Source: Aequorivita sp. CIP111184 (GTDB lineage Bacteria; Bacteroidota; Bacteroidia; Flavobacteriales; Flavobacteriaceae). From it: a DNA stretch of 64,000 nucleotides. Both the position numbers and the translations under genes were made by a program. The notes under the pieces were generated by a model, which worked only from the letters and a program-made list of their open reading frames with translations, did no database searches and had not been told where the DNA came from. Location of the stretch: NCBI RefSeq assembly GCF_900489465.1, contig NZ_UEFQ01000024.1:248001-312000 (forward strand), in the 5' to 3' direction. This document shows positions 32,477 through 62,207 of the stretch, one piece after another. The stretch's first letter is position 1; every line of letters starts with the position of its first letter.

Positions 32477-33943
32477 ATGACATTAACTTTCAAAAAAAAT
32501 CTTGTAACAAAAATGCTTCTCTGTTTAGGAGGAGTGGTTTTCCTTTCAGGCTGTGTAAACGACCAATCCGACAAAAAATACAATGATACGGTAGATATTC
32601 CCGTGAATCAAGAAATGATTGCGGAACTAACCTCACCGCCATTTGTTCCAACTCCGGTTGGAAAACGTATGGCGAAAAAACTGATCGTCGATCTTGAAAT
32701 TCAAGAACGTGAAGGCGAAATGACTGGCGGCGTTAAATATGTTTATTGGACGTTTGGCGGAACTGTTCCTGGTAGTTTCATAAGAACCCGTGTAGGCGAT
32801 GAAGTGGAATTTCATTTGAAAAATCACCCAGACAACAAGCTTCCCCACAACATTGACCTTCACGCAGTGAACGGTCCAGGTGGTGGTGCAGAATCTTCAT
32901 TTGTTGCTCCGGGGCACGAAAAAGTGTTCTCTTTTAAAGTACTTAATCCTGGACTTTATGTTTACCATTGTGCAACCGCGCCTGTGGGAATGCACATTGC
33001 AAACGGAATGTATGGTCTTATCTTAGTAGAGCCTGAAGGGGGTTTGGAACCAGTTGATAAAGAATATTATATTATGCAAGGTGATTTTTATACCGAAGGA
33101 AAATATGGCGAACGTGGCCTGCAAGCTTTCGATATGCAGAAAGCAATCAACGAAACTCCGGACTATGTAGTATTCAACGGCCACGTTGGTGCTATGACTG
33201 GCGATAATGCACTTACTGCAAAAGTGGGTGAAAAAATACGTCTCTTTGTTGGTAATGGCGGACCTGGTCTTGTTTCATCCTTCCACGTAATTGGAGAAAT
33301 TTTTGATAAAGTTCATATTGAAGGTGGAAGCATGATTAATGAAAATGTTCAAACAACAATGATACCCGCGGGAGGTGCTGCAATTGTAGAATTTCGCGTA
33401 GATGTTCCCGGAACATTTATATTGGTTGACCACTCTATTTTCAGAGCTTTTAACAAAGGCGCTTTGGCGATGCTTAAAGTAGAAGGTGAAGAAAACAAAG
33501 CAATTTATTCGGGAGAGATTCGTGATGGTATTTATCTTCCGGAAGGTGGCGCAATTCAATCCATGCCTACAGATGGTGTAAAAAAGGAAAAAGAGGAAGT
33601 GAAAGCTTTTACTTTTGAAGAACGAATGAAATTCGGGAAAGACAAATTTACAGCTACTTGTGTTGCCTGCCATCAAGCAAATGGCCAAGGAATTCCCGGA
33701 GCCTTTCCTCCTTTGGCAAAATCTGATTACTTAAATGCCGATGTAAACCGCGCTATCGATATTGTTTTACACGGAAAAACTGGAGAAATAACAGTAAATG
33801 GCAAGAAATACAACAGTGTAATGACTGCCCAAGCACTTTCTGACGAAGATGTTACCAACGTACTTACTTACGTTTATAACAGCTGGGGTAATTCTAAAAA
33901 AGAAGTTACGCCAGAAATGGTTCAAGCCGTTAGAAATAAATAG
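32477..33943 (+). CDS. nirK: Copper nitrite reductase fused to C-terminal cytochrome c
   Basis: A 488-residue protein with lipobox-like LSGC (Cys26). The NirK part (about 50-370) has LPHNIDLHA (H124, H129), [16 protein letters not shown] (H164, C165, H173, M178; type 1 and type 2 copper ligands) and [12 protein letters not shown] in the second domain. The last 100 residues form a class I cytochrome c with CVACH at 395-399, providing an internal electron donor site. The reaction is NO2- to NO in the periplasm. The cytochrome part closely resembles the second heme domain of the protein at 49936-50949. Confidence 0.95.
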
Positions 33944-39430: not shown

Positions 39431-41632
39431 CTATTCGTTTTTAGCTGAAGTATTTTCAGCGTTATCTACTTTAATATCAGTTCCCAGACGTTGCAAATAG
39501 GCTATTACTGCTACTACTTCGCGATTTTTCATTTCTATGAAATCCTCACCATTGTCTTTGGCGTATTTCATATCTGCCTCGTAGGTTTTTACAAAATCAG
39601 GATCACTGTAGAGATTCTTCTCTATTTTGGCACCCTGTTCGTCCATCCACTTTTGAGCGTTTACTATTTCTTCTTCAGTATAGGGAACTCCCAGCGTAAC
39701 CATTACGCGCATTTTTGCCTCTGTGTCTGATTTGTCCAATTCTGAATTCACCAACCATCTATAAGAAGGCATAATGGAACCGGAAGACGTACTTTGTGGA
39801 TCATACAAGTGGTTCAAATGCCAGTTATCTGAATATTTTCCACCCACCCGATGCAAGTCGGGGCCTGTACGTTTACTTCCCCAAAGGAATGGGTGGTCGT
39901 AAACATATTCGCCAGATTTTGAATATTCACCATAGCGCTCTACTTCACTTCTGAAAGGACGAATCATCTGTGAGTGACAGGAAACACAACCTTCTCGAAT
40001 ATATATGTCTCGGCCTTCCAACTCTAGTGGTGTATAAGGCTTTACGCTAGAAATTACAGGCACATAATCATCTACCATTAATGAAGGAATAATCTGTACC
40101 ATCCCTCCAATCAAAATAGCAATGGTTGCATAAATTGTCAATTTAACAGGACGGCGCTCCAACCAAGTATGGTAGCCTTCGCCGGAAGTCTGTTTTTTAG
40201 TCACCGGTGCTAAAGGTGCAGCTTCTGCAAGTTCATCAGTAACCTTGCTACCTCTTCTAGCCGTCATTACAATATTGTATAATAAGATAAAAGCTCCTGT
40301 AATATATAATGTTCCTCCAATTGCACGCATCGTGTACATTGGCATAATTTGAGTAACTGTCTCTAGGAAATTTCCATAGGTTAGTGTTCCATCTGGGTTG
40401 AACTGATTCCACATGGAAGCCTGCATAAATCCTGCAACGTACATTGGAAGGGTGTACATAATAATACCCAAAGTACCTATCCAGAAATGGGCGTTTGCCA
40501 ATTTAATGGAATACAATTTTGTTTTAAAAAGACGCGGCACCAACCAATAAATCATACCAAAGGTTAAGAAACCATTCCAGGCAAGTGCGCCAACGTGAAC
40601 GTGCGCTATAATCCAGTCGCTAAAGTGAGCTATCGCGTTTACGTTTTTAAGAGAAAGCATTGGGCCTTCAAAAGTTGCCATACCATAACCGGTAATTGCA
40701 ACAACCATAAACTTTAAAACTGGATCAACACGTACTTTATCCCAAGCACCGCGAAGCGTCAAAAGACCGTTAATCATACCACCCCAAGATGGAGCTAAAA
40801 GCATTACCGAAAAGGCAACTCCCAAGTTCTGCGCCCATTCTGGAAGTGCGGAATATAAAAGGTGGTGTGGCCCTGCCCAAATATAGATAAAGATCAAAGA
40901 CCAAAAGTGAACTATGGAAAGACGGTAGGAATATACCGGTCTGTTCGCCGCTTTGGGTACAAAATAATACATCAATCCAAGGAAAGGTGTGGTAAGGAAA
41001 AATGCCACCGCATTATGCCCGTACCACCATTGCACTAGCGCATCCTGTACTCCTGCATACATAGAATAACTCTTCAAAGCCGAAACAGGTATTTCCATGC
41101 TGTTAACAATGTGAAGCACGGCAACGGTGACCCAAGTTGCCAAATAGAACCACAGAGCCACATACAAGTGGCGCTGGCGTCTTTTCACCATTGTCATTAT
41201 TAAGTTTACTCCAAACGCAACCCAAATTACTGCGATAGCAATATCAAAAGGCCACTCAAGCTCAGCATATTCCTTTGAAGTAGTATAACCTAAAGGAAGT
41301 GTGATTGCAGCACCAACAATAATAGCTTGCCAGCCCCAAAAATTCAAGTTACTAAGAAAGTCACTCCACATACGCGCTTTAAGTAGGCGCTGGGAAGAAT
41401 AGTAAACTCCAGCAAAAATTGCGTTCCCTACAAAGGCAAAAATAACGGCGTTGGTGTGCAAAGGTCGCAAACGACCAAAACTAAGCCACGAAATACCTTC
41501 CGTCATATTAGGGAACAAAAACATAAAAGCCAGCAATAAGCCGACACTCATACCAATGAGTCCCCAAAATATGGTCGCATTGATGAATTTTTTGACAATC
41601 TGGTTGTCGTAGTAAAACTGTTCTGTTTGCAT
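39431..41632 (-). CDS. ccoNO: Fused cbb3 oxidase subunits CcoN-CcoO
   Basis: A 733-residue fusion. The CcoN part (1-470) has RLRPLHTN (H59, low-spin heme), WYGHNAVA (H206, CuB), GPHHLLY (H256, H257, and Y260, the Tyr crosslinked to the CuB His in cbb3 enzymes) and DWIIAHVHVGALAWNG. The CcoO part (about 500-733) has CVSCH at 549-553, followed by SQMIRPF and GSKRTGPDLHRVGGKYSD, ending with a Met ligand region. The fusion is common in Bacteroidota. It reduces oxygen to water with high affinity and pumps protons. It starts 14 bases after ccoS. Confidence 0.95.
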   Translation of the reverse strand: MQTEQFYYDNQIVKKFINATIFWGLIGMSVGLLLAFMFLFPNMTEGISWLSFGRLRPLHTNAVIFAFVGNAIFAGVYYSSQRLLKARMWSDFLSNLNFWGWQAIIVGAAITLPLGYTTSKEYAELEWPFDIAIAVIWVAFGVNLIMTMVKRRQRHLYVALWFYLATWVTVAVLHIVNSMEIPVSALKSYSMYAGVQDALVQWWYGHNAVAFFLTTPFLGLMYYFVPKAANRPVYSYRLSIVHFWSLIFIYIWAGPHHLLYSALPEWAQNLGVAFSVMLLAPSWGGMINGLLTLRGAWDKVRVDPVLKFMVVAITGYGMATFEGPMLSLKNVNAIAHFSDWIIAHVHVGALAWNGFLTFGMIYWLVPRLFKTKLYSIKLANAHFWIGTLGIIMYTLPMYVAGFMQASMWNQFNPDGTLTYGNFLETVTQIMPMYTMRAIGGTLYITGAFILLYNIVMTARRGSKVTDELAEAAPLAPVTKKQTSGEGYHTWLERRPVKLTIYATIAILIGGMVQIIPSLMVDDYVPVISSVKPYTPLELEGRDIYIREGCVSCHSQMIRPFRSEVERYGEYSKSGEYVYDHPFLWGSKRTGPDLHRVGGKYSDNWHLNHLYDPQSTSSGSIMPSYRWLVNSELDKSDTEAKMRVMVTLGVPYTEEEIVNAQKWMDEQGAKIEKNLYSDPDFVKTYEADMKYAKDNGEDFIEMKNREVVAVIAYLQRLGTDIKVDNAENTSAKNE

Positions 41633-44699: not shown

Positions 44700-45917
44700 T
44701 TACGCAGCTTTGAAATACTCTATAAAAGTATTCTTAAAAAAAAGGATTGCAATTGAGATGGGAAAAGCCAAACTTAACATTGCCAATAATAAATAATAAT
44801 TTGAAAAAAAAGGTAAGCCCAACCATAGCGCGGTAGCTTTATAAAAAATTAGAAGTTCCGTAGTTGTGAAAGCAAAAATGAAAGTCAATAAAAAACTTTT
44901 CGGAAGCTCAATAAGTTTAAAATATTTCAAAAAGGCGAGTAAAGTTGTGATTACAATCCCCAGGAAAACCAAATGCAAGTAGCCGATTACAAAATCCTTG
45001 AGTTGAAAAGCGAGGTTTGCGACATATGGAAATGCCGAAAACACTTGCATTAAAGTTTTTACAACCATTAAACTCCCCGAAATTTTCATAAGAAAGAAAA
45101 CTCTGGAGGAAAAGGATTTTTTTAAAATCGGGAAATGATTTTTCAGCATCAAATAGAGTTCGTAAAAAGCCAAACCTTGCGCCACCGCTCCTACCAATCC
45201 GAGTATATAAAAAATTAAGGGTGGAGCGAACCAGAGTACTGATAGAAACACGGTAAAGAGTATTCCGAAATTCAAAAGAAGGAAAAATGATTTCAATTTT
45301 TCGGGATTAAATAGGATTCCTTTTTCTTCAAAAATATAAAATAGAACACCCAAAAGTGCCAAAATAAACCAACCGTTATACTGAAAGTGAAGGTAGAAAT
45401 AAATGGAGGTTTTGTACCAAATGGAATCAGGCCCCAGCGTTGCCATCACCCACCCAATTGCCCACGGACCGATGCTGGAAAGCACTAAATATAAAAGTGA
45501 CGTCTTTATCAATTTCCACGAAAATCGGTTTTTAAAATGCTTCGGAATATGTTTTATAGCAAACCATGAAAACCAATAGGAGGCGAATAGAAAAAGACTT
45601 GAAAATATAATGGAAAACAGCGCGTAGCCTTGTATTGGAAACGTCACTAACATTCCAATAATACAAATGTTTGTAAAGATAAAAATACGTTTGTAAAGCT
45701 TGGGTTTATGCGCTTCAGAAAGGAAAATTTTATAAATCAGGGTCGTCAATCCCAAATAGACCCAACCCAATAGGGCTGTGTGCGAATGTGCGTGCAGGAT
45801 AAATTTATAATTCAGCGGAATGGGCGTAACGTAGAATAGCCGAAGCAACACTCCCATCAAGGCTACAATTAAGAAATAGACCAACGCAATGACTATATGT
45901 TTCTTTAAATCTATCAA
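44700..45917 (-). CDS. Heme-copper-oxidase-like multi-helix membrane protein
   Basis: A 405-residue protein with about 12 membrane helices. His-rich motifs lie in membrane segments: FILHAHSHTALLGWVYLG (residues about 39-56), YFYLHFQYNGWFILALLG (about 170-187) and FVIGYLHLVFLG (about 315-326). These resemble helix II, VI and X motifs of the heme-copper oxidase fold but without the HH pair of helix VII, so a classical CuB site is not present. The gene is next to ric and to other NO-related genes. It may be a heme-binding NO-stress protein analogous to NnrS; it is not an oxidase by these data. Confidence 0.65.
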   Translation of the reverse strand: MIDLKKHIVIALVYFLIVALMGVLLRLFYVTPIPLNYKFILHAHSHTALLGWVYLGLTTLIYKIFLSEAHKPKLYKRIFIFTNICIIGMLVTFPIQGYALFSIIFSSLFLFASYWFSWFAIKHIPKHFKNRFSWKLIKTSLLYLVLSSIGPWAIGWVMATLGPDSIWYKTSIYFYLHFQYNGWFILALLGVLFYIFEEKGILFNPEKLKSFFLLLNFGILFTVFLSVLWFAPPLIFYILGLVGAVAQGLAFYELYLMLKNHFPILKKSFSSRVFFLMKISGSLMVVKTLMQVFSAFPYVANLAFQLKDFVIGYLHLVFLGIVITTLLAFLKYFKLIELPKSFLLTFIFAFTTTELLIFYKATALWLGLPFFSNYYLLLAMLSLAFPISIAILFFKNTFIEYFKAA

Positions 45918-46046: not shown

Positions 46047-46769
46047 TTAATTTTTCAATATCTTTTCTAAATTCAAAGCCTTTGGGAAAAGGATATTGTT
46101 TTCTAAATGCACGTGTTGGTGCAAATCCTGTTCAAATTCATCCAGTTTTGAATAAAATGCACGATACGTATTACAAGCGCCTTGAGGTGGAGTAAAATTG
46201 TTGCTGAGCACAGCTATTCTACGTAATATCTCGCCGGCTTCTTCGTGCTCTTCTTCCATCATTTTAATGGGGTTTTCAACAGTTCCAAAATGTATTGAGG
46301 GAATTTCACTGCCTTCGCGCTCTGCTTTTACTAATTTTTTAATGAAGGGAAAAAGAATTAATTCTTCCTTTTTCATATGTGCCGCCAATGTCTGCACTAC
46401 TTTTTTCACTAAAATTTCTATTTCACCCAACTCAGTATAATGGTGGCCATGAACGTGATTCACCCTTTTGGAATACTGAAGAAGTAATGGACTGCTTTCT
46501 TCAACGTAACCGTGGTGTAGATTAATAATATGATCTGTAAGAAAATCAAGCTTCCAACTGTTGTAATCTGAAGCGCGATCTGGCACACTATCCAAACTTA
46601 AAAGTTCAGTTTCCAAGATATCTGGATTAATTTTCGCCTTTTCGCAGGCTCTTTTAATACTTATTCCACCGCCACAGCAGAAATCTATTCCGTATTTTTT
46701 AAATATATGGGCGGCTTTTATGTTTTCGGTAACCACGTCTGCCACGGTACGTTCTTGAAGTGTTGTCAT
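46047..46769 (-). CDS. ric: Iron-sulfur cluster repair di-iron protein (RIC/ScdA/YtfE)
   Basis: A 240-residue protein with the N-terminal DUF542 domain (residues about 1-60, with DFCCGGG at about residues 29-35) and a hemerythrin-like di-iron domain with HHGYVEESSPLLL, AAHMKKEELILFPFI and LHQHVHLENNILFPKA. RIC proteins repair iron-sulfur clusters after NO or oxidative damage. An FNR-type promoter module lies upstream at 46799-46842. Its presence next to denitrification genes fits protection against NO. Confidence 0.93.
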   Translation of the reverse strand: MTTLQERTVADVVTENIKAAHIFKKYGIDFCCGGGISIKRACEKAKINPDILETELLSLDSVPDRASDYNSWKLDFLTDHIINLHHGYVEESSPLLLQYSKRVNHVHGHHYTELGEIEILVKKVVQTLAAHMKKEELILFPFIKKLVKAEREGSEIPSIHFGTVENPIKMMEEEHEEAGEILRRIAVLSNNFTPPQGACNTYRAFYSKLDEFEQDLHQHVHLENNILFPKALNLEKILKN

Positions 46770-46873: not shown

Positions 46874-47338
46874 TTATTCCCAAAATGGATCGTGATAATC
46901 TGGTGTTTTCCCAAGGTGAAGGTGTATTTCCTCAATTTTTTCAAGTTGTTCTTCCGTGGCAACTTTTTGTATTTCGTTGAAAAGAATGCGTTCCTCAAAC
47001 CGAATGTGCGCATCCAGTTCTTCCTCTAAACGGCTAAGCGATTTATCAGGATTTCTCGAGTCATTAAAAAGACGTTTTATACGGCGGTGCTCCTTTAATG
47101 CACGCTCTATTAATACATTATCTTTTCCGAGAATTGGAAAAACATATTTTTCTTCATCACTGAAATGTGGCTTTATTTCATGCTGAAAAAACCATTTTGC
47201 ATATTCGCTTAGTCTTTCTATTTCAATATTTTTATTGAAACCTTTTCGCAGTTTCCAACTGAAAAGTAACCCAAAATGATGTTGCCGGCTTAAGGCTTGT
47301 AATGCTTTGTGACGTTTTAAAGGTTTTTTCTTTTCCAT
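46874..47338 (-). CDS. Hemerythrin-domain protein
   Basis: A 154-residue protein from the ATG ending at 47338 (MEKKKPLKRHKAL); the longer frame overlaps the preceding gene. The hemerythrin-like pattern is RQHHFGLLFSWKLRKGF, FFQHEIKPHFSDEEKYVFPIL, LKEHRRIKRLFND and LDAHIRFEERILFNEIQ. These His and Glu residues can bind a di-iron centre. A role in oxygen or NO sensing/binding is likely given neighbours. Confidence 0.83.
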   Translation of the reverse strand: MEKKKPLKRHKALQALSRQHHFGLLFSWKLRKGFNKNIEIERLSEYAKWFFQHEIKPHFSDEEKYVFPILGKDNVLIERALKEHRRIKRLFNDSRNPDKSLSRLEEELDAHIRFEERILFNEIQKVATEEQLEKIEEIHLHLGKTPDYHDPFWE

Positions 47339-47342
47339 AGAT

Positions 47343-47633
47343 TTAGGATGTTTCAATATATTTTATTCGCTTGCCTCCACACTCGGGACAACGCTCAATT
47401 ATTCTCTTTTTGTTTTTAAATCCGTCTACGTGTTCCACCATAAATTTTCCCACTTTAACATGTTTATCGCGATGGTTCTTTACGTCTATTTGTTTGTCCT
47501 TGGACATTACGCGAGTTTTCTGATCATATTCTTGATAACCCCAACAAAAAGGGCAGTTTTCGCCAACTTCTTCTAAAAGCAACTCTTTCGGTTCTTTTCT
47601 GAAAAATTTCAATAAACGATGAATATAGTCCAT
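47343..47633 (-). CDS. Zinc-ribbon-like conserved protein
   Basis: A 96-residue protein with two CxxC-type knuckles: CPFCWGY (residues about 27-33) and CPECGGKRI near the C terminus, separated by a charged region (KNHRDKHVKVGKF). This is consistent with a zinc ribbon. It starts upstream of the hemerythrin gene on the same strand. Function unknown. Confidence 0.7.
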   Translation of the reverse strand: MDYIHRLLKFFRKEPKELLLEEVGENCPFCWGYQEYDQKTRVMSKDKQIDVKNHRDKHVKVGKFMVEHVDGFKNKKRIIERCPECGGKRIKYIETS

Positions 47634-49236: not shown

Positions 49237-49659
49237 TTAAAAAAAAGATTTATACAATTCTGGACTCCAATACATAATTAGGTAGAACAATCCGAAAGCG
49301 AAAAAGGCAATCAACAATGCCCAAACCCAGGCTGGAATTGCTTTTGGAGTTTCAGAACCTTTTATAACAAAAAAATCTTTTGTTTCACTTCCGTAAGCAT
49401 TGATTATTAAAGGTACTTGGGTGTCTACCGTTTCATTATCCTTTAAGCCCACTATGGAAATAGAAGGACCGTTGCGCACTACGAAAGGAACTTCGCGAAT
49501 ACCTTCAATTCCGTTAGAGGACTTTGCTACAATTTTTAAAGTGTGTTTACCGTCGGAAATTTTGGTTGTATCCAAAACAACTTTTACAGGTGGAGCAAAA
49601 GAGGCAAATGGCTTTGGATCTTCATCCAAAAAAACTTTTATGATTCTATTATCTTCCAT
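49237..49659 (-). CDS. Membrane-anchored Ig-like protein of the candidate NOR operon
   Basis: A 140-residue protein without a signal peptide. Two beta-rich segments (VKVVLDTTKISDGKHTLKIVAK and SISIVGLKDNETVDTQVPLIINAYG) resemble Ig-like folds. One C-terminal membrane helix (PAWVWALLIAFFAFGLFYLIMY) follows. It lies three bases from the next gene of the operon, so it is probably a small subunit or assembly factor of the enzyme at 49936-52769. No family is recognised. Confidence 0.7.
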   Translation of the reverse strand: MEDNRIIKVFLDEDPKPFASFAPPVKVVLDTTKISDGKHTLKIVAKSSNGIEGIREVPFVVRNGPSISIVGLKDNETVDTQVPLIINAYGSETKDFFVIKGSETPKAIPAWVWALLIAFFAFGLFYLIMYWSPELYKSFF

Positions 49660-49662
49660 AAT

Positions 49663-49932
49663 TTAAAATCCTTCATTTTTAACGATATTTTTTATATGAT
49701 CTGGATTGCCTTCTTTGGGTTTTATTAAATATTTGATACTTAAAAATAAAGTAGCAACCACTATTACCACACCAGACCATATAATTATATAATCCATAGG
49801 TCCCGAAGGACCGGAGCCGTGTGTTATATTCTCAAAGCCCGCTGGCTGATTTTTTTTACATAGATCACAAGCCCAACTTAGCTGATTCCCTAAAAAAAAT
49901 AAGATTGTAAAAACTGATAATATCTTTTTCAT
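49663..49932 (-). CDS. Small exported membrane protein with CDLCKK motif
   Basis: An 89-residue protein with a signal-like helix, then ACDLCKKNQP right after the cleavage site, one membrane helix (about residues 47-67) and a charged tail. The CxxC pair could bind metal or heme-adjacent copper. It is directly downstream of the diheme subunit gene (four bases), so it belongs to the same operon. Function unknown. Confidence 0.7.
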   Translation of the reverse strand: MKKILSVFTILFFLGNQLSWACDLCKKNQPAGFENITHGSGPSGPMDYIIIWSGVVIVVATLFLSIKYLIKPKEGNPDHIKNIVKNEGF

Positions 49933-49935
49933 CTT

Positions 49936-50949
49936 TTATTGATTTAATTCGTTCTTTACCATTTCTCTAATTTTCTTCACATCTTCTTCTTTCACGGCTG
50001 GTGCATTATTACCCCAACTGCTACGCTCATGGGTAGTTATGGCTGCAATTTCTGCATCGCTCAATTGGTCTCCAAAGGGTGGCATTACGCCATAATCAGC
50101 TCGGGCATCATAGCCTTGTAGGATAATTTTTATGAGCATTTCTGGGCTTTCATCATTTACAATTTTACTGCCTGCCAAGGGAGGAAATGCGCCAGCAATA
50201 CCTTTTCCATTATCTTGGTGACAAGCAGCGCAGGTTTGTTTAAACAGATTAGCACCATCAAGACCACCACTCGCTTTATCGCTTCGCATTCCCTCTTCCT
50301 GAATTTTCCGTAATGCGGGAATAAAATCACTGACATTACCCCCAGGTAGCTCCATTTGTTTTAGGGATTTTAAATATTCTACCAATAGCAGGGCATCTTT
50401 TGTTGCAACAATTTTTGTTCCTGGGTTATTAAAATATTCTTTCGGAACGGCAACGATTTTGTCATTTTCCCCTACCAAGGTACTATCCACTTCCCGAAAT
50501 AACCAAGGGTATGATGGCATAACAGATTCTGAAACCACTGCTCTTGGATTGTACAAATGTAAGAAATGCCAATCATCACTTGGTTGGCGTTTTCCAATAT
50601 TAGTAAGGTCTGGACCTGTACGTTCGCTTCCCAAAAGTGAAGGCGATTGTCGCCAAACATCCAAGCGTTGCTTGCTGAAAAAATAATCTGATGGAATTGA
50701 GGGGCGATTTCCCCACATATTATCCATCTCAATATTCCGGACCTGTTGCGTATGGCATGCCATACAGTTTTCTGAAACATAGATTCGTAACCCTTCCTGT
50801 TCATTTGCCGTTAATGGTTTTTGGTTTGGAATAGGTTGAGTTTCCTGCATCTGATATGCAGGAAGTATCGCTACCATTATACTCAAGGCTATAAACACAA
50901 CTCCCGCTGTGAGTACTAAATTTTTATGTTCTTTATGAAAATTGAGCAT
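49936..50949 (-). CDS. CcoO-like subunit fused to a cytochrome c domain
   Basis: A 337-residue membrane-anchored diheme protein. One N-terminal helix precedes a CcoO-like domain with CMACH at 62-66, and SLLGSERTGPDLTNIGKRQPSDDWH, a CcoO signature. A second cytochrome c domain has CAACH at 240-244 and resembles the C-terminal domain of NirK at 32477-33943 (QDNGKGIAGAFPPLAGS against [17 protein letters not shown]). It would carry electrons to the catalytic subunit encoded directly upstream. Proteobacterial CcoO has one heme; the fusion is notable. Confidence 0.85.
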   Translation of the reverse strand: MLNFHKEHKNLVLTAGVVFIALSIMVAILPAYQMQETQPIPNQKPLTANEQEGLRIYVSENCMACHTQQVRNIEMDNMWGNRPSIPSDYFFSKQRLDVWRQSPSLLGSERTGPDLTNIGKRQPSDDWHFLHLYNPRAVVSESVMPSYPWLFREVDSTLVGENDKIVAVPKEYFNNPGTKIVATKDALLLVEYLKSLKQMELPGGNVSDFIPALRKIQEEGMRSDKASGGLDGANLFKQTCAACHQDNGKGIAGAFPPLAGSKIVNDESPEMLIKIILQGYDARADYGVMPPFGDQLSDAEIAAITTHERSSWGNNAPAVKEEDVKKIREMVKNELNQ

Positions 50950-50960
50950 TTTTAATCTTA

Positions 50961-52769
50961 TTAAACAGTTATTTTCTCTACTTCTTTTAACTTAACTTCG
51001 GTTTCTACTTTTCTATAATTTTTTACCATATAATAGAAATTATAGACAAAAACAAGATGCGATATGAACATTAAAGAACCACCAATGGCGCGCCATACCC
51101 AATAAGGCCGCATAAGAATCACCGATTCAATAAATGCATTTCCTTCTATCCAGCTAAGCCCTTTATAAGTTCCGCCTGCCATAAGTGAAACCATATAAGC
51201 AAAAAGCCCTATAAACGCCAACCAGAAATGTGCCCCAACCAAAACTTGTGGCGGTTCCTTTCCTGTTATTTTTGGTAAAATGGCATAAATGGAAGCCCAT
51301 AAAAAGAAGGCTATAATTCCATACATCGTCATATGGCTGTGCGCCACATTGAAATCTGTAAAGTGCCAAACATAATTGGTAAAACGAAAGGCCTGCAGAC
51401 TCCCTTGCATAGAGCCAACGAAGTAAAAGATGGTTCCAACCAAAAAGAATGGCAGCACATAACTCTTGGAAATATGACTCCAACTACCTCGCATTGTCAT
51501 AAAGAAATTTGTGGTTCCCGCAATAACTGGAATTGCCATTCCTGCACTGAAAACAATTGCAACTGTTTGTAGCCACCAAGGCAACGGACTAAAAACGAAG
51601 TGGTGCGTGCCTATCATAGTGTAAAACAGCATTTGTGTCCAGAATGCAAGTACGCCCAAGGAATAGGAATAAATCGGTTTGTTTAGAGATGAAGGTAAAT
51701 AGTAATAAACTAGACCTAATGTAAAGGTCATAAACCACATTCCCACCCCTTGGTGCATATAATATCCTTGAATCACAGTTTCTCCCAGACCGTCTTGATA
51801 AAATGGCAAATAACCAATGATTGCCAAAACTATAGTCCAGATTAATGCAGCGAGAATAAACCAATTTGATATATATATTTCTGAAATTTTACGCTTTGCA
51901 ACTGTTTTGTAGAAATTGAAAAATGTGATGATCAAAGCAATTGCAAAAAGCAGCATAATGGGCCAGATATATTCGCGATACTCCCCGCCTCCATTATTGA
52001 TACCCGCCATTAGGCTCAAGCTTCCCAATGTTATAGTCGCATTAATAAGAAACCATCCCGTCCAAGCTAATTTTGGACTGTGAATTACTGTATTGGACGT
52101 TCTCGCAATAACGAAATAACCCAATCCAATCATGGCGAGCGAGGACCATCCCCAAAAGACCATATTTGTATGAACGGGTCGCAACCTACCAAAGGAAAGC
52201 CAAGATTGATGATCCATTTCTGGCCATAGAAATTTCATTCCCAGATATTGCCCAATAAAAGTTCCCAAAACCAACCAAAAGGCGGCGGCCCCTATATAAT
52301 AAATTACAATTTTCTTTAACGCTTCTGGAGTTTCAATGCTAAGCGTTGTTTTCTTTTTTTCATCAAAAAAAGCATTGTTAGGCTTATTGTCAATACGATG
52401 TATTAATCCCTTTTCATCTTCCGCCTCGTTCTCACCTCCCAATTCGTCTCCGGACAATTTATAGGTAAGAGCGGCTTTTCTTTTTTCGAGAATAAAATCA
52501 ATTTCTCCTTTATCCATTGCAATAATCTCGTCATCGAAAGCCATTTTGTTTTTATTATGCTGTTTACGCTTCAGCGTGTCTATATAGCCATTTAGTTTCA
52601 CCAATAGGATTATAACCGCAACTACCATCACAATAGCAATTAATACGAAAGTGCCAATAATACCAGGACTTGACAACCAATTTTCTGTTGAAATATTTGT
52701 GTTCTGCGACATCATAAATTGGGGAATCCAACCTAGAATCAATAGCATTGACCAATTCTTTTTTCTCAT
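50961..52769 (-). CDS. cbb3-like catalytic subunit without active-site Tyr; candidate NO reductase
   Basis: A 602-residue heme-copper-oxidase superfamily protein of the CcoN type. It has an N-terminal extension (1-150) with a signal-like helix, a second helix and a charged coil. Ligands are H200 (RLRPVHTN), H339 (YMHQGVG), H389 and H390 (GTHHFVF), H477 and H479 (VAHSHMTM), so all six histidines are kept. The Tyr after the HH pair, which is crosslinked in cbb3 oxidases (Y260 in the CcoNO of this window), is replaced by F393. NO reductases lack this Tyr as well. Together with an NsrR-like operator and NO-related neighbours this makes a NO reductase the best guess; a non-standard oxidase remains possible. 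Confidence 0.8.
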   Translation of the reverse strand: MRKKNWSMLLILGWIPQFMMSQNTNISTENWLSSPGIIGTFVLIAIVMVVAVIILLVKLNGYIDTLKRKQHNKNKMAFDDEIIAMDKGEIDFILEKRKAALTYKLSGDELGGENEAEDEKGLIHRIDNKPNNAFFDEKKKTTLSIETPEALKKIVIYYIGAAAFWLVLGTFIGQYLGMKFLWPEMDHQSWLSFGRLRPVHTNMVFWGWSSLAMIGLGYFVIARTSNTVIHSPKLAWTGWFLINATITLGSLSLMAGINNGGGEYREYIWPIMLLFAIALIITFFNFYKTVAKRKISEIYISNWFILAALIWTIVLAIIGYLPFYQDGLGETVIQGYYMHQGVGMWFMTFTLGLVYYYLPSSLNKPIYSYSLGVLAFWTQMLFYTMIGTHHFVFSPLPWWLQTVAIVFSAGMAIPVIAGTTNFFMTMRGSWSHISKSYVLPFFLVGTIFYFVGSMQGSLQAFRFTNYVWHFTDFNVAHSHMTMYGIIAFFLWASIYAILPKITGKEPPQVLVGAHFWLAFIGLFAYMVSLMAGGTYKGLSWIEGNAFIESVILMRPYWVWRAIGGSLMFISHLVFVYNFYYMVKNYRKVETEVKLKEVEKITV

Positions 52770-52805: not shown

Positions 52806-52829
52806 ATTTCTGACAAAATTGTCAGAAAT
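52806..52829 (-). promoter_or_regulatory. Rrf2 operator upstream of the candidate NOR operon
   Basis: A 24-bp palindrome: arm ATTTCTGACAA, two central A, then the complementary arm. It is 37 bases upstream of the ATG at 52769. On the minus strand its centre reads CAATTTTG, near to a -7 box, so a bound repressor would block transcription. It matches the palindrome at 53315-53338 except for one base per arm. Confidence 0.72.
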
Positions 52830-52841
52830 AGATAAAAAAAA

Positions 52842-53276
52842 TTATCTCCTCAAAAAGGACATTCCCACATCTAGTCCATTTGCTAATTCATAAAGACTTG
52901 TGTTTTCTAACATTATTTTAAGATTATCTCTAATATCAACAAATTTATTGTGCATAGGACAAGGTTTTTGCGAATCGCAACGGTCAAATCCAAGAGCGCA
53001 ACCATTGTAAATTGAATCCCCATCAATTGCTGCAACTATATTGCTTAAATTAATTTTTTCTGCCCTGCCCTTTGGGATTTCAAAACCGCCAGTTGGCCCT
53101 TTAAGCGATGTCAGTATGTTCTGCTTGGCCAACTGGTGCAGAATTTTGGCAGTAAATGCCTCAGGAGATTTTATGCTTGAAGCTATTTCCTTTAAACTGA
53201 CACGATTGCCCATAGACGACTGCGATGCAATATACACCGAAGCTTTTATCCCATATTGGCATGCTTTTGAAAACAT
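52842..53276 (-). CDS. Rrf2-family iron-sulfur regulator, copy 1
   Basis: A 144-residue regulator with the Rrf2 winged helix (KACQYGIKASVYIA, SPEAFTAKILHQLAKQNILTSLKGPTGGF) and cysteines C93, C100 and C106 in CALGFDRCDSQKPC, the place of cluster-binding cysteines in NsrR and IscR. It probably senses NO or redox state. Its own operator-like palindrome lies 39 bases upstream, and the same palindrome controls the operon that follows; autoregulation is likely. A paralog is encoded next to it. Confidence 0.87.
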   Translation of the reverse strand: MFSKACQYGIKASVYIASQSSMGNRVSLKEIASSIKSPEAFTAKILHQLAKQNILTSLKGPTGGFEIPKGRAEKINLSNIVAAIDGDSIYNGCALGFDRCDSQKPCPMHNKFVDIRDNLKIMLENTSLYELANGLDVGMSFLRR

Positions 53277-53314: not shown

Positions 53315-53338
53315 ATTTCTGATAAAATTATCAGAAAT
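53315..53338 (-). promoter_or_regulatory. Rrf2 operator upstream of the Rrf2 gene
   Basis: A 24-bp palindrome with arm ATTTCTGATAA, two central A and the complementary arm. It lies 39 bases upstream of the ATG at 53276, mirroring the position of the palindrome at 52806-52829. On the minus strand the centre reads TAATTTTA, close to a -7 box. Confidence 0.72.
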
Positions 53339-53378: not shown

Positions 53379-53807
53379 TTATAGTTTTAAAAATGTTTCC
53401 CCTTTCTGAAGTTTATCGGCAAGCTGAAGTATTGTAGTATTTTCGCACATTTTTTTTAACCCAATACGAACTTCCTGAAATTGATCGTGTACAGGACATG
53501 GTTTTTCCGAAGAACATTCGCGAAGCCCCAGTCCACAGCCATTAAAAATAGCATCACCATCAATCACTGCAACAATTTCAGCCAATTTTAAGGTAGAATC
53601 CTTCTCCAAATAAAATCCGCCATTTGGTCCTTTTCTGGAACGTATCATATTTTCCCTTGCCAACTGCTGGCAAACTTTTGCTGTAAATGGTTCGGGAGAA
53701 TCTACTGCTTTTGCTATTTCTGTAATATTTGGACGCAAATTCTGTTGCGATTGTTGTGCTATAAAAAGAACGGCCCTTATGCCGTATTCACATGCTTTTG
53801 AAAACAT
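53379..53807 (-). CDS. Rrf2-family iron-sulfur regulator, copy 2
   Basis: A 142-residue paralog of the regulator at 52842-53276, with the same opening (MFSKACEYGIRAVLFIA), winged helix (SPEPFTAKVCQQLARENMIRSRKGPNGGF) and cysteines C91, C98 and C104. No 24-bp operator is seen in front of it, so it may be controlled differently. It may bind the operators of copy 1 or act on other promoters. Confidence 0.87.
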   Translation of the reverse strand: MFSKACEYGIRAVLFIAQQSQQNLRPNITEIAKAVDSPEPFTAKVCQQLARENMIRSRKGPNGGFYLEKDSTLKLAEIVAVIDGDAIFNGCGLGLRECSSEKPCPVHDQFQEVRIGLKKMCENTTILQLADKLQKGETFLKL

Positions 53808-60239: not shown

Positions 60240-62207
60240 TTAATCTTCGCCTAAAGACCATTTAAGCTCTGTTCCAGAACCTGCAGGGCTTACGCGAACA
60301 TAACCTTGCATTTCTTGGTGTAATGCAGAACAGAAATCGGTACAGTAAAATGGCCATACCCCGGGAAGTTTTGGTTCCCAAATAAAGGTTTCTGTCTGTC
60401 CTGGCATAATCAACAATTCTGAAGTATTAGCGCCAATCATACTAATTCCATGTGGTACATCGTAATCCTGTTCGTGGTTTGTAACGTGGAAGAACACTTT
60501 GTCGCCCACTTTTACACCTTCAATATTATCTGGGTTAAAGTGGCTTCGAATCATGGTCATATAAATATGTACTTCATTTCCTTTGCGCTCCACTTTTGCA
60601 TCACCATCAGTAATTGTGGCGTAAGGGTGTTTATTTTCAGAAAGCTTGAATATCTGTTTTGAATTTTTTGCAACTATATCTGCAGGAATACCAGCAGCAT
60701 AGTGAGGCTCCCCAATGGTTGGGAAATCCAATAACAGTTCCATTTTATCACCGCTTATGTCAAACAACTGTGCAGACTGTGTAACCTCTGGTCCTGTTGG
60801 CAAATATCTGTCTTTTGTAATTTTATTCATTGAGAGCAAATATTTTCCAAAAGGCTTACGAGAATTTCCGCCCGGAATCATTACGTGTCCCACAGAATAA
60901 AATACGGGTTGTCTATCTTCAACTTCCCAAGATCCCAATTTCCATTTTACAACTTCAGAAGAAATAAAGAACGAGGTATAAGCATTTCCTTTATCATCAA
61001 ACTCTGTGTGCAATGGACCAAGACCTGCTTGTTTTACAGTTCCTGCAAGTACATCTTCGAATTTTAAGATTGGAATACCGTAAGCTTCTCCATCAAATTT
61101 CTTGTTTTCAATAGCGGCAAGCATTTTTGTGAAAGAATGCACTGTTAAATCGGCAGAAAGTTTTCCGTTACCAACAATATACTCTCCCGTTGGATCAACA
61201 TCACAACCGTGAGGTGATTTTGGCGTTGGAAGGAAAAATATAGCGCCCGGTACATCCAATGGATTAACCGTAAGAACTTCATCCATTATTGTTGAAGTGG
61301 CCGAATGTGTTTCATCACTATAAACATTGTGTGCGTATTTCGCTGGAACTTTTGTTCCTCCACCGTTATTTACATATTCTTCAATTTTCTTCCAGTTTAC
61401 GGCTGCAATAAAATCTTTATCGTTTTGGGAAGCGTTTACTTCCAACAATGAGTTTGCTTCTTCGGTATTATAAGTAGTAAAGAAGAACCAACCGTGAGAT
61501 TTGTCGCGACCGGGATGCGAAAGGTCATAATCAAAACCAGGCATTAATAATTGAAATTTAATAGCCATACGCCCTGTTTCGGGTGCAACACTTATAAATG
61601 AAAGTGCTCCTTTAAAGTTTCCTTTATAATCCTTAATAGGCATATCGCGCTGTGGAATTGGCACTGAGAAACGAGTTCCCGCCACTACATATTCCGTATT
61701 TTCAGTAACGAAAGAAGAACTGTGGTTCCCGGCGCTGTTTGGCACTTCAAGAATTTCTGCAGTTTCAAAAGTGGTTAAATCAATACGCGCAATACGGGGG
61801 GTGTTGTTTTCATTAATAAAAACCCAACGTCCATCAAGTTCTCCATTCGTTTGTGATATATCTGGGTGATGCGCATCTCCCCAAGGCACAAATCCATAAG
61901 AAGTTTCTAACATAGGTTTACTTTCTTCATTGTATCCATAAGCCTTTTCAGGATCTTGTGAAAATACGGGAATCACTTTAAACAATCGCCCTGATGGCAA
62001 TCCGTAAACAGCAAGCTGTCCACTAAAACCCCCTGAAACGAAAGCATAAAACTCATCGTGTTCGCCTGGAGCTACATACACTTTTTCAGCGGCGTTGCCA
62101 GCCAAACCACCCTGGCCTTTGTTTCCTCTTTTGTTTCCGTCATTGTTACAGCTCACCAAACCGGCGACCATAATTAGGGAAACCAAAATATTAATTGCTT
62201 TTTTCAT
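60240..62207 (-). CDS. nosZ: Nitrous oxide reductase, clade II type
   Basis: A 655-residue enzyme with a Sec signal and lipobox (LVSC) rather than a twin-arginine signal, as in clade II NosZ. CuZ ligand regions include GDAHHPDISQTNGELDGRW, FLPTPKSPHGCDVDPTGEY and GLGPLHTEFDDKGNAYTSFF. The C-terminal cupredoxin has the CuA motif C622-TDF-C626-SAL-H630-QE-M633. It reduces N2O to N2 in the periplasm. It is downstream of a fasciclin gene and a cytochrome c gene. Confidence 0.95.
   Translation of the reverse strand: MKKAINILVSLIMVAGLVSCNNDGNKRGNKGQGGLAGNAAEKVYVAPGEHDEFYAFVSGGFSGQLAVYGLPSGRLFKVIPVFSQDPEKAYGYNEESKPMLETSYGFVPWGDAHHPDISQTNGELDGRWVFINENNTPRIARIDLTTFETAEILEVPNSAGNHSSSFVTENTEYVVAGTRFSVPIPQRDMPIKDYKGNFKGALSFISVAPETGRMAIKFQLLMPGFDYDLSHPGRDKSHGWFFFTTYNTEEANSLLEVNASQNDKDFIAAVNWKKIEEYVNNGGGTKVPAKYAHNVYSDETHSATSTIMDEVLTVNPLDVPGAIFFLPTPKSPHGCDVDPTGEYIVGNGKLSADLTVHSFTKMLAAIENKKFDGEAYGIPILKFEDVLAGTVKQAGLGPLHTEFDDKGNAYTSFFISSEVVKWKLGSWEVEDRQPVFYSVGHVMIPGGNSRKPFGKYLLSMNKITKDRYLPTGPEVTQSAQLFDISGDKMELLLDFPTIGEPHYAAGIPADIVAKNSKQIFKLSENKHPYATITDGDAKVERKGNEVHIYMTMIRSHFNPDNIEGVKVGDKVFFHVTNHEQDYDVPHGISMIGANTSELLIMPGQTETFIWEPKLPGVWPFYCTDFCSALHQEMQGYVRVSPAGSGTELKWSLGED

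Follow-up and report, generated by a model that had tools for sequence, protein, structure and literature searches.

A Bacteroidota clade of C-family heme-copper reductases that keeps the catalytic tyrosine, has an altered proton channel and is a candidate for nitric oxide reduction

We analysed a 64,000-nucleotide stretch of the genome of Aequorivita sp. CIP111184 (contig NZ_UEFQ01000024.1, positions 248,001-312,000; hereafter the window, to which all coordinates refer unless another locus is named), focusing on an operon that encodes a 602-amino-acid (aa) catalytic subunit of the C family of heme-copper proteins. Together with its Bacteroidota relatives, this protein forms what we call the 602-aa family, an apparently uncharacterised, well conserved C-family clade in which the heme and copper histidines and the catalytic tyrosine are intact and the proton channel is altered. 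The enzyme would belong to a nitric oxide (NO) stress and denitrification module, and is more likely a Tyr-retaining NO reductase (NOR) than an oxygen reductase induced by NO. For physiological NO reduction as such, the comparative sequence evidence tips the balance slightly in favour.

Results

The catalytic subunit keeps all metal ligands and the helix-VII tyrosine

The catalytic gene, the codons discussed below and the canonical CcoNO of the window used for comparison are:
50961..52769, minus strand: catalytic subunit of 602 aa from an intact open reading frame, a C-family heme-copper protein extended at its N terminus
51621..51623, minus strand: codon of Y383, cross-linked-Tyr position (Pseudomonas stutzeri Y251)
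51591..51593, minus strand: codon of F393, taken by the original prediction as the active-site position (P. stutzeri Y261)
51654..51656, minus strand: codon of G372, C-type K-channel Ser position (P. stutzeri S240)
39431..41632, minus strand: canonical CcoNO, with Y250 as the catalytic Tyr and Y260 as the residue considered in the original prediction

The 602-aa protein matches the COX1 profile PF00115 with an E-value of 3e-81, and its best match by sequence among solved structures is the P. stutzeri CcoN of entry 3mk7 (E 4.6e-68). Against the ccoN equivalog model of NCBIfam it reaches 254 bits, below the cutoff of 583, whereas the window CcoNO reaches 652 bits. Our alignment agrees with the original prediction that all six heme and copper histidines are kept (H200, H339, H389, H390, H477 and H479, with H339, H389 and H390 as the CuB ligands), and these are conserved in 22/22 aligned members of the family; M347 is a further residue among the key positions of the protein.

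The original prediction had further read the protein as a NO reductase because Phe393 stood in place of an active-site Tyr. The underlying ungapped alignment, which pairs F393 with Y260 of CcoNO, is correct, as both residues lie at HH+4 (positions are counted relative to the His-His pair, H389-H390 in the 602-aa protein and H256-H257 in CcoNO). However, the catalytic Tyr sits at HH-6, where the 602-aa protein has Y383 and CcoNO has Y250, so that nothing has been replaced. According to excerpts of PMC3084760, helix VII is where C-type enzymes carry the Tyr that forms the cross-link with a CuB His ("Tyr-II"), which sets them apart from the A types and most B types. In the 3mk7 chain, which aligns here without gaps, the stretch T-V-Y251-I-W-A-G-P-H257-H258 follows H207 and precedes Y261. 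We take P. stutzeri Y251 to be the Tyr cross-linked to H207, in agreement with the positions counted from the alignment.

A scan of a genome collection returned 420 relatives, of which the best 80 (L040-L119, at least 66% identity, titles all naming Bacteroidota) were kept and underlie all counts out of 80. HH-6 is Tyr in 80/80 of these relatives and in 23/23 Flavobacteriaceae CcoN, and in a 63-protein alignment Tyr occupies it in 53/53 C-family rows, and 9/9 NOR rows have Ser, Gly or Thr there. HH+4 is Phe in 79 of the 80 relatives and Tyr in one (L119), while all 23 CcoN have Tyr; in the 63-protein alignment it is Tyr in 5/9 and Trp in 4/9 NOR rows, and Gly in 4/4 rows of a second, Tyr-II-bearing C-family clade. 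The genome of L119, too, has nirK and nosZ and lacks NorB. By alignment, the cross-linkable helix-VII Tyr is retained by the 602-aa protein as Y383, and F393 is ruled out as the catalytic position, since the catalytic Tyr is kept at HH-6, and HH+4 varies and is Tyr in some NORs. The argument from Phe393 to a NO reductase, for which the HH+4 contrast between the family and CcoN is the supporting observation, thus fails and deserves hardly any credence.

The family forms a clade of its own with an altered proton channel

Among 199 Flavobacteriaceae genomes, the family is present in 10, the window's own counted. A 100-genome sample held seven orthologues besides that of the window, 67-82% identical, and the next matches, at 32-35%, were CcoN proteins, an assignment backed by the motif in 22 loci. 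In a tree built without a distant outgroup, the family stands on its own 100/100 branch and canonical CcoN (15 rows) on another 100/100 branch, and a further 100/100 branch divides all 43 C-family rows from the nine NOR rows; the branching order among the C-family lineages is not resolved in this tree, and several long rows call for caution about long-branch effects. A tree rooted with aa3 enzymes again gave the family 100/100; its root lies on a very long branch and is not trustworthy, the order is again unresolved, and we distrust the grouping it shows of NORs, the family and other odd C-family rows together away from CcoN (84/100). The phylogeny with CcoN and NorB that the original prediction had proposed as a check accordingly places the protein neither inside the oxygen-reducing CcoN nor inside the known NorB, and the separate 100/100 branches rule out a placement within canonical CcoN.

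Membership in cNOR or qNOR is ruled out by the motifs, the presence of Tyr-II and the tree. The NOR motif H-x-Arom-x-E is absent from 80/80 family members and present in 9/9 NOR rows. The motif HH-x-Arom-Arom (its X17-E tail left aside) is likewise absent from 80/80 and present in 7/9 NOR rows, the two without it being of the SHN type.

In this SHN type, Ser-His-Asn replaces the paired His of qNorB-like proteins. The following genes were seen, and the cluster that holds the one of L085 lies upstream of the 602-aa operon in 5/80 loci:
L125:637-2985, plus strand: qNorB-like protein of the SHN type
L126:583-2988, plus strand: qNorB-like protein of the SHN type
L127:1372-3804, minus strand: qNorB-like protein of the SHN type
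L085:6246-8579, plus strand: qNorB-like protein of the SHN type

The C-type K-channel is described in part of PMC3084760 as comprising Tyr-II, a Ser and a Tyr. Gly replaces the Ser (P. stutzeri S240) in 80/80 family members, and 31/31 other C-family rows keep the Ser; the channel Tyr (P. stutzeri Y223) is kept, so that both channel Tyr are present and the Ser is gone. In addition, helix-VI Thr215 (P. stutzeri numbering) is Met in 80/80 family members and Thr in 31/31 other C-family rows, and the position of H243 is Ala in 80/80 and variable among the other C-family rows. Thr215 and His243 presumably line the same K-channel route. A cNOR-like enzyme would be expected to have lost a cytoplasmic proton route. 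A search of open-licence PMC papers returned no earlier description of this clade.

The family often occurs in nirK genomes that lack norB

The two denitrification genes of the window are:
32477..33943, plus strand: nirK, Cu nitrite reductase with a C-terminal cytochrome c
60240..62207, minus strand: nosZ, nitrous oxide reductase

The observation of the original prediction that nirK and nosZ are present and canonical norB is absent extends to the whole genome, in which no cNorB/qNorB profile match was found at E 1e-70 and PF00115 at E 0.001 returned just three proteins, namely the aa3 enzyme, CcoNO and the 602-aa protein. The 199 Flavobacteriaceae genomes served as background sample (nirK in 38, nosZ in 90, cNorB/qNorB in 46). 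Here nirK occurs in 5/10 family-positive and 33/189 family-negative genomes (Fisher p 0.024), and among the nirK-positive ones NorB was found in 28/33 without and 1/5 with the family (p 0.0075).

As a case set we used 48 family-positive genomes, from 50 loci that we chose among the 80, mainly from isolates (L043 and L093 are absent); nirK was found in 33, nosZ in 38 and NorB in 15 of them. NorB is absent from 20/33 nirK-positive carriers and from 5/33 nirK-positive family-negative background genomes (p 3e-4), a comparison of groups of different taxonomic make-up, as the cases span several Bacteroidota families and the background consists of Flavobacteriaceae. Collapsing the data to genus-level labels, the one adjustment for kinship in tests that otherwise count genomes as independent, 15 of the 22 labels with a nirK-positive carrier include one without NorB (p 1e-4). 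Similarly, NorB is missing from 18/26 carriers and 3/21 family-negative genomes that have both nirK and nosZ (p 3e-4). Three case genomes apparently repeat background ones (G013, G036 and G073), and NorB was called with a threshold of 1e-70 for the background and 1e-25 for the cases, a difference that works against the effect.

For 24 nirK-positive, NorB-negative carriers, a PF00115 search showed that 22 have just aa3, CcoNO and the 602-aa protein (assigned by score and frame length), with extra heme-copper genes in the other two (G107 and G117); this candidate search covered heme-copper proteins, and nirS, flavodiiron NOR and Hmp were not searched for. Judged from these gene sets, nirK genomes often appear to have no NOR candidate besides the 602-aa protein.

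A conserved operon with a di-heme cytochrome c amid NO-stress genes

Downstream of the catalytic gene, the window holds:
49936..50949, minus strand: di-heme cytochrome c, a fusion of a FixO/CcoO-like part with a CcoP-like c domain, carrying two CxxCH
49663..49932, minus strand: small membrane protein, 89 aa, no family match, operon member, 78/80 loci
49237..49659, minus strand: 140-aa operon member with a C-terminal hydrophobic stretch, 79/80 loci
46874..47356, minus strand: hemerythrin-like protein, 31-34/80 loci
46047..46769, minus strand: RIC/YtfE (ScdA) di-iron protein, TIGR03652 above cutoff, 40-42/80 loci

The di-heme cytochrome c gene is found in 80/80 loci, with two CxxCH in all of them, and a relative of the 140-aa protein (L061) gave a weak FixP_N match below the cutoff. 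The RIC and hemerythrin genes that had been noted close to the operon are both seen in the window, and a truncated-globin cluster (PF01152 for one representative) lies near the operon in 46/80 loci. These neighbours and a Trp-dioxygenase-like gene, which lie further along, are mostly on the same strand as the operon. All neighbour counts are lower bounds, because several contigs end early.

Two further genes were observed in this neighbourhood. The window encodes a 405-aa hydrophobic HAHSH protein (44700-45917, minus strand) between the RIC and CcoI-like genes, with no Pfam or NCBIfam match and with homologues in 10/80 loci. The Trp-dioxygenase-like gene lies downstream of the operon on the same strand in 12/80 loci, e.g., L045:14033-14938 (plus strand), which matches PF03301.

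An Rrf2-family gene and an operator-like site precede the operon

Upstream of the catalytic gene the following elements were found:
52842..53276, minus strand: Rrf2-family regulator with three Cys (C-x6-C-x5-C)
53379..53807, minus strand: second Rrf2-family regulator
52807..52828, minus strand: palindromic operator-like site TTTCTGACAAAATTGTCAGAAA (plus-strand reading), upstream of the catalytic subunit
53316..53337, minus strand: second copy of the operator-like site, upstream of the Rrf2 gene

The site at 52807-52828 is a perfect inverted repeat with 11-bp arms, of which the window has two exact copies; three matches were counted against 0.02 expected, one of the three being the reverse reading of the first site. 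An operator-like inverted repeat thus stands beside the Rrf2 gene, as the original prediction of an Rrf2-type operator had it. An Rrf2 gene is present in 63/80 loci and directly upstream in 56/80, all 56 with C-x6-C-x5-C. The pattern TTTCYGAYAAWWTTRTCRGAAA, drawn from the window and from the Algoriphagus sites of L099 and L108, gave 28 matches in 22/80 loci with up to two mismatches, 27 of which lie at the start of an rrf2 or catalytic gene; the L099 and L108 loci, which contribute four of the 28, are not independent, because they were used to draw the pattern. Three rounds of shuffled sequences gave zero matches, as did the other 58 loci. Searching upstream in the relatives for exact palindromes yielded little, and when all loci were scored for their best inverted repeat, the values came close to those of shuffled sequences.

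The window Rrf2 protein lies above the Rrf2 superfamily cutoff, but reaches 31.9 bits against the NsrR model of NCBIfam, whose cutoff is 182. It passes the superfamily cutoff alone; it may sense NO and act as an Fe-S-type repressor, with both the repression and the inducer predicted.

A congeneric genome lacks the operon

Genome G027, from the same genus, contains an island arranged as in the window (nirK, fix genes, CcoNO, RIC, hemerythrin, one Rrf2 gene, acetyl-CoA hydrolase and nos genes) without the second Rrf2, catalytic and cytochrome genes; the operon therefore has the look of a removable cassette that a genome can do without.

A NorB-like gene was observed in the nos-side island of this genome and of Aequorivita capsosiphonis (L168), in which the 602-aa operon is present as well:
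L167:5065-6387, minus strand: NorB-like 441-aa protein (G027)
L167:6380-6847, minus strand: cytochrome c gene adjoining it (G027)
L168:14350-15672, minus strand: NorB-like 441-aa protein (A. capsosiphonis)

The solved-structure matches of the 441-aa protein are NorB only, yet the helix-VI His/Glu motif is lost, and judged from its sequence it is possibly a degenerate or a new NOR relative. A simple substitution of the 602-aa enzyme by this gene in G027 was rejected, considering the loss of the helix-VI H/E motif in the alignment. Another heme-copper protein was observed in Gelidibacter japonicus, the genome of L048 (L169:3901-5340, plus strand; 480 aa), which by eye has an Asn four residues after the probable helix-VI His, in the place of the A/B-type Tyr. 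We take it to resemble nNOR.

Discussion

Building on the observed sequence features, clade, operon, operator-like site and co-occurrence, we propose a mechanism in which the substrate, the metal at CuB and the electron and proton routes are predicted. The 602-aa family would represent a distinct Bacteroidota clade of C-family reductases that keep the six His and the helix-VII Tyr and have lost the K-channel Ser and the helix-VI Thr. Electrons would enter the enzyme via its di-heme cytochrome c partner, the operon would be controlled by an Fe-S-type Rrf2 regulator as part of a nitrosative-stress and denitrification module, and NO would be reduced to N2O at the heme b3-CuB centre. The enzyme would thereby take the place of a NOR in many NirK genomes without cNOR or qNOR. 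The original claim of a NO reductase of the cbb3 branch is thus carried by the independent context, the co-occurrence, the loss of the K-channel Ser and the placement, and no longer by the Tyr argument; it is unproven.

The alternative that survives best, which we nevertheless regard as rather unlikely, is a C-family oxygen reductase, induced by NO or Fe-S damage, that sustains respiration while NO inhibits the aa3 and ordinary cbb3 enzymes. It is supported by the retention of the six His (22/22 aligned members) and of Tyr-II (80/80) and by the place of the family on the C-family and not the NOR side of the 100/100 branch. Several points that weigh against NO reduction support it too: the helix-VI Glu of the NOR iron site is missing from the family, nirK and nosZ are both absent from 3/48 carriers, and carriers as a whole show no depletion of NorB (15/48; 1/10 family-positive and 45/189 family-negative background genomes, p 0.46), with 13/33 nirK-positive carriers having both enzymes. 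However, an oxygen reductase is at odds with the loss of the K-channel Ser, complete in the family and seen in none of the 31 other C-family rows; 22/24 nirK-positive, NorB-negative carriers already have an apparent aa3 and CcoNO, and the absence of NorB from many nirK-positive carriers is left unexplained.

Further observations count against a NO reductase. Enrichment of nosZ is not significant (6/10 family-positive and 84/189 family-negative genomes, p 0.35), and with nosZ in 3/80 and nirK in 2/80 fetched flanks, these genes are rarely linked to the operon, which refutes physical linkage as a general rule. Five nirK-positive genomes lack both NorB and the family: four hold two heme-copper proteins, none of them NOR-like, and the fifth is G027, with nirK and nosZ, no 602-aa operon, no canonical NorB and the NorB-like 441-aa protein as its third heme-copper protein. 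Some nirK-positive genomes thus have no heme-copper NOR at all and leave the slot unfilled, and the co-occurrence pattern is evidence and not proof.

The apparent retention of the Tyr also counts against NO reduction, as a cross-linkable Tyr is a distinction between oxygen reductases and NORs stated in part of PMC3084760. Excerpts of PMC8780969 report NO reduction to N2O by the cbb3 of P. stutzeri, a C-type enzyme that has the Tyr, so that the Tyr is no bar to this reaction; they also describe NO reduction by oxidases as slower than by NORs and as relevant where NORs are absent. As C-type enzymes reduce NO, more slowly than NORs, the ordinary CcoNO could cover part of the need, again a point against a dedicated role of the 602-aa enzyme.

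A bifunctional enzyme or one acting on another nitrogen oxide (e.g., converting nitrite to N2O), or a low-capacity NO scavenger or sensor, appears improbable: such roles would fit the RIC and globin genes linked to the operon and, for the former, the turnover of nitrite into N2O by P. stutzeri cbb3 that excerpts of PMC8780969 describe, but a two-heme cytochrome subunit conserved in 80/80 loci argues for turnover and not for sensing.

If NO reduction by the 602-aa enzyme is the correct reading, NO reductases are possible without losing the catalytic Tyr, which bears on the evolution between O2 and NO reduction, and norB-based surveys of denitrification miss an enzyme of about 5% of the sampled Flavobacteriaceae genomes (10/199). 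In its widest form, for which we see a little less than an even chance, the family would be a lineage of NO reductases not described so far, with an origin inside the C family apart from cNOR and qNOR, keeping the His-Tyr pair unlike the NORs treated in the excerpts of PMC3084760, losing the K-channel Ser and closing the gap from NO to N2O in many Bacteroidota denitrifiers that seem incomplete in norB searches. Should the enzyme turn out to reduce oxygen instead, its conserved C-family clade, which lacks the K-channel Ser and is tied to NO-stress genes, still tests the purpose of the channel and of the Tyr.

Comparison with known systems

With canonical cbb3 (CcoN of 3mk7 and 5djq, and the window CcoNO), the 602-aa family shares the six His, the Tyr-II six residues before the His pair, the K-channel Tyr and a FixO-type cytochrome partner. 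It differs in the changes of Ser240 to Gly and Thr215 to Met, in its N-terminal extension and its separate clade, and in the cytochrome partner, which has two c hemes, whereas canonical cbb3 has three. With NorB of the cNOR and qNOR types it shares the relationship among heme-copper proteins, the denitrification and NO-stress context and possibly the same slot in the pathway, but the family keeps Tyr-II, is without both NOR motifs and lies across a 100/100 branch. The enzymes eNOR, sNOR, gNOR, nNOR and bNOR, proposed or shown NORs besides cNOR and qNOR, are B-family relatives according to parts of PMC11388526, whereas the 602-aa protein belongs to the C family.

A second cbb3-like clade, the Gly type, is encoded on plasmids of Proteobacteria (Cupriavidus metallidurans CH34, Azoarcus KH32C, Paraburkholderia and Paracoccus). 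It likewise keeps Tyr-II and has lost the HH+4 Tyr, here to Gly:
L034:4851-6518, plus strand: member of the Gly-type C-family clade
L170, L171 and L173: further members of this clade

FixO-like and cytochrome c genes adjoin in CH34, Azoarcus KH32C and Paraburkholderia, and a SCO gene is annotated in Azoarcus and was read by eye in CH34. This clade differs from the 602-aa family in keeping the K-channel Ser and in forming a separate 100/99 clade. Regarding regulation, the excerpts of Rodionov 2005 (PMC1274295) describe NsrR as an Rrf2 repressor that controls dnrN (RIC), hmp and, in some beta-proteobacteria, norB. The operator-like site of the window is unlike the NsrR consensus gATGyAT-N5-ATrCATc given there, while the placing of RIC-type genes and norB under NsrR resembles the NO-stress gene set of the operon.

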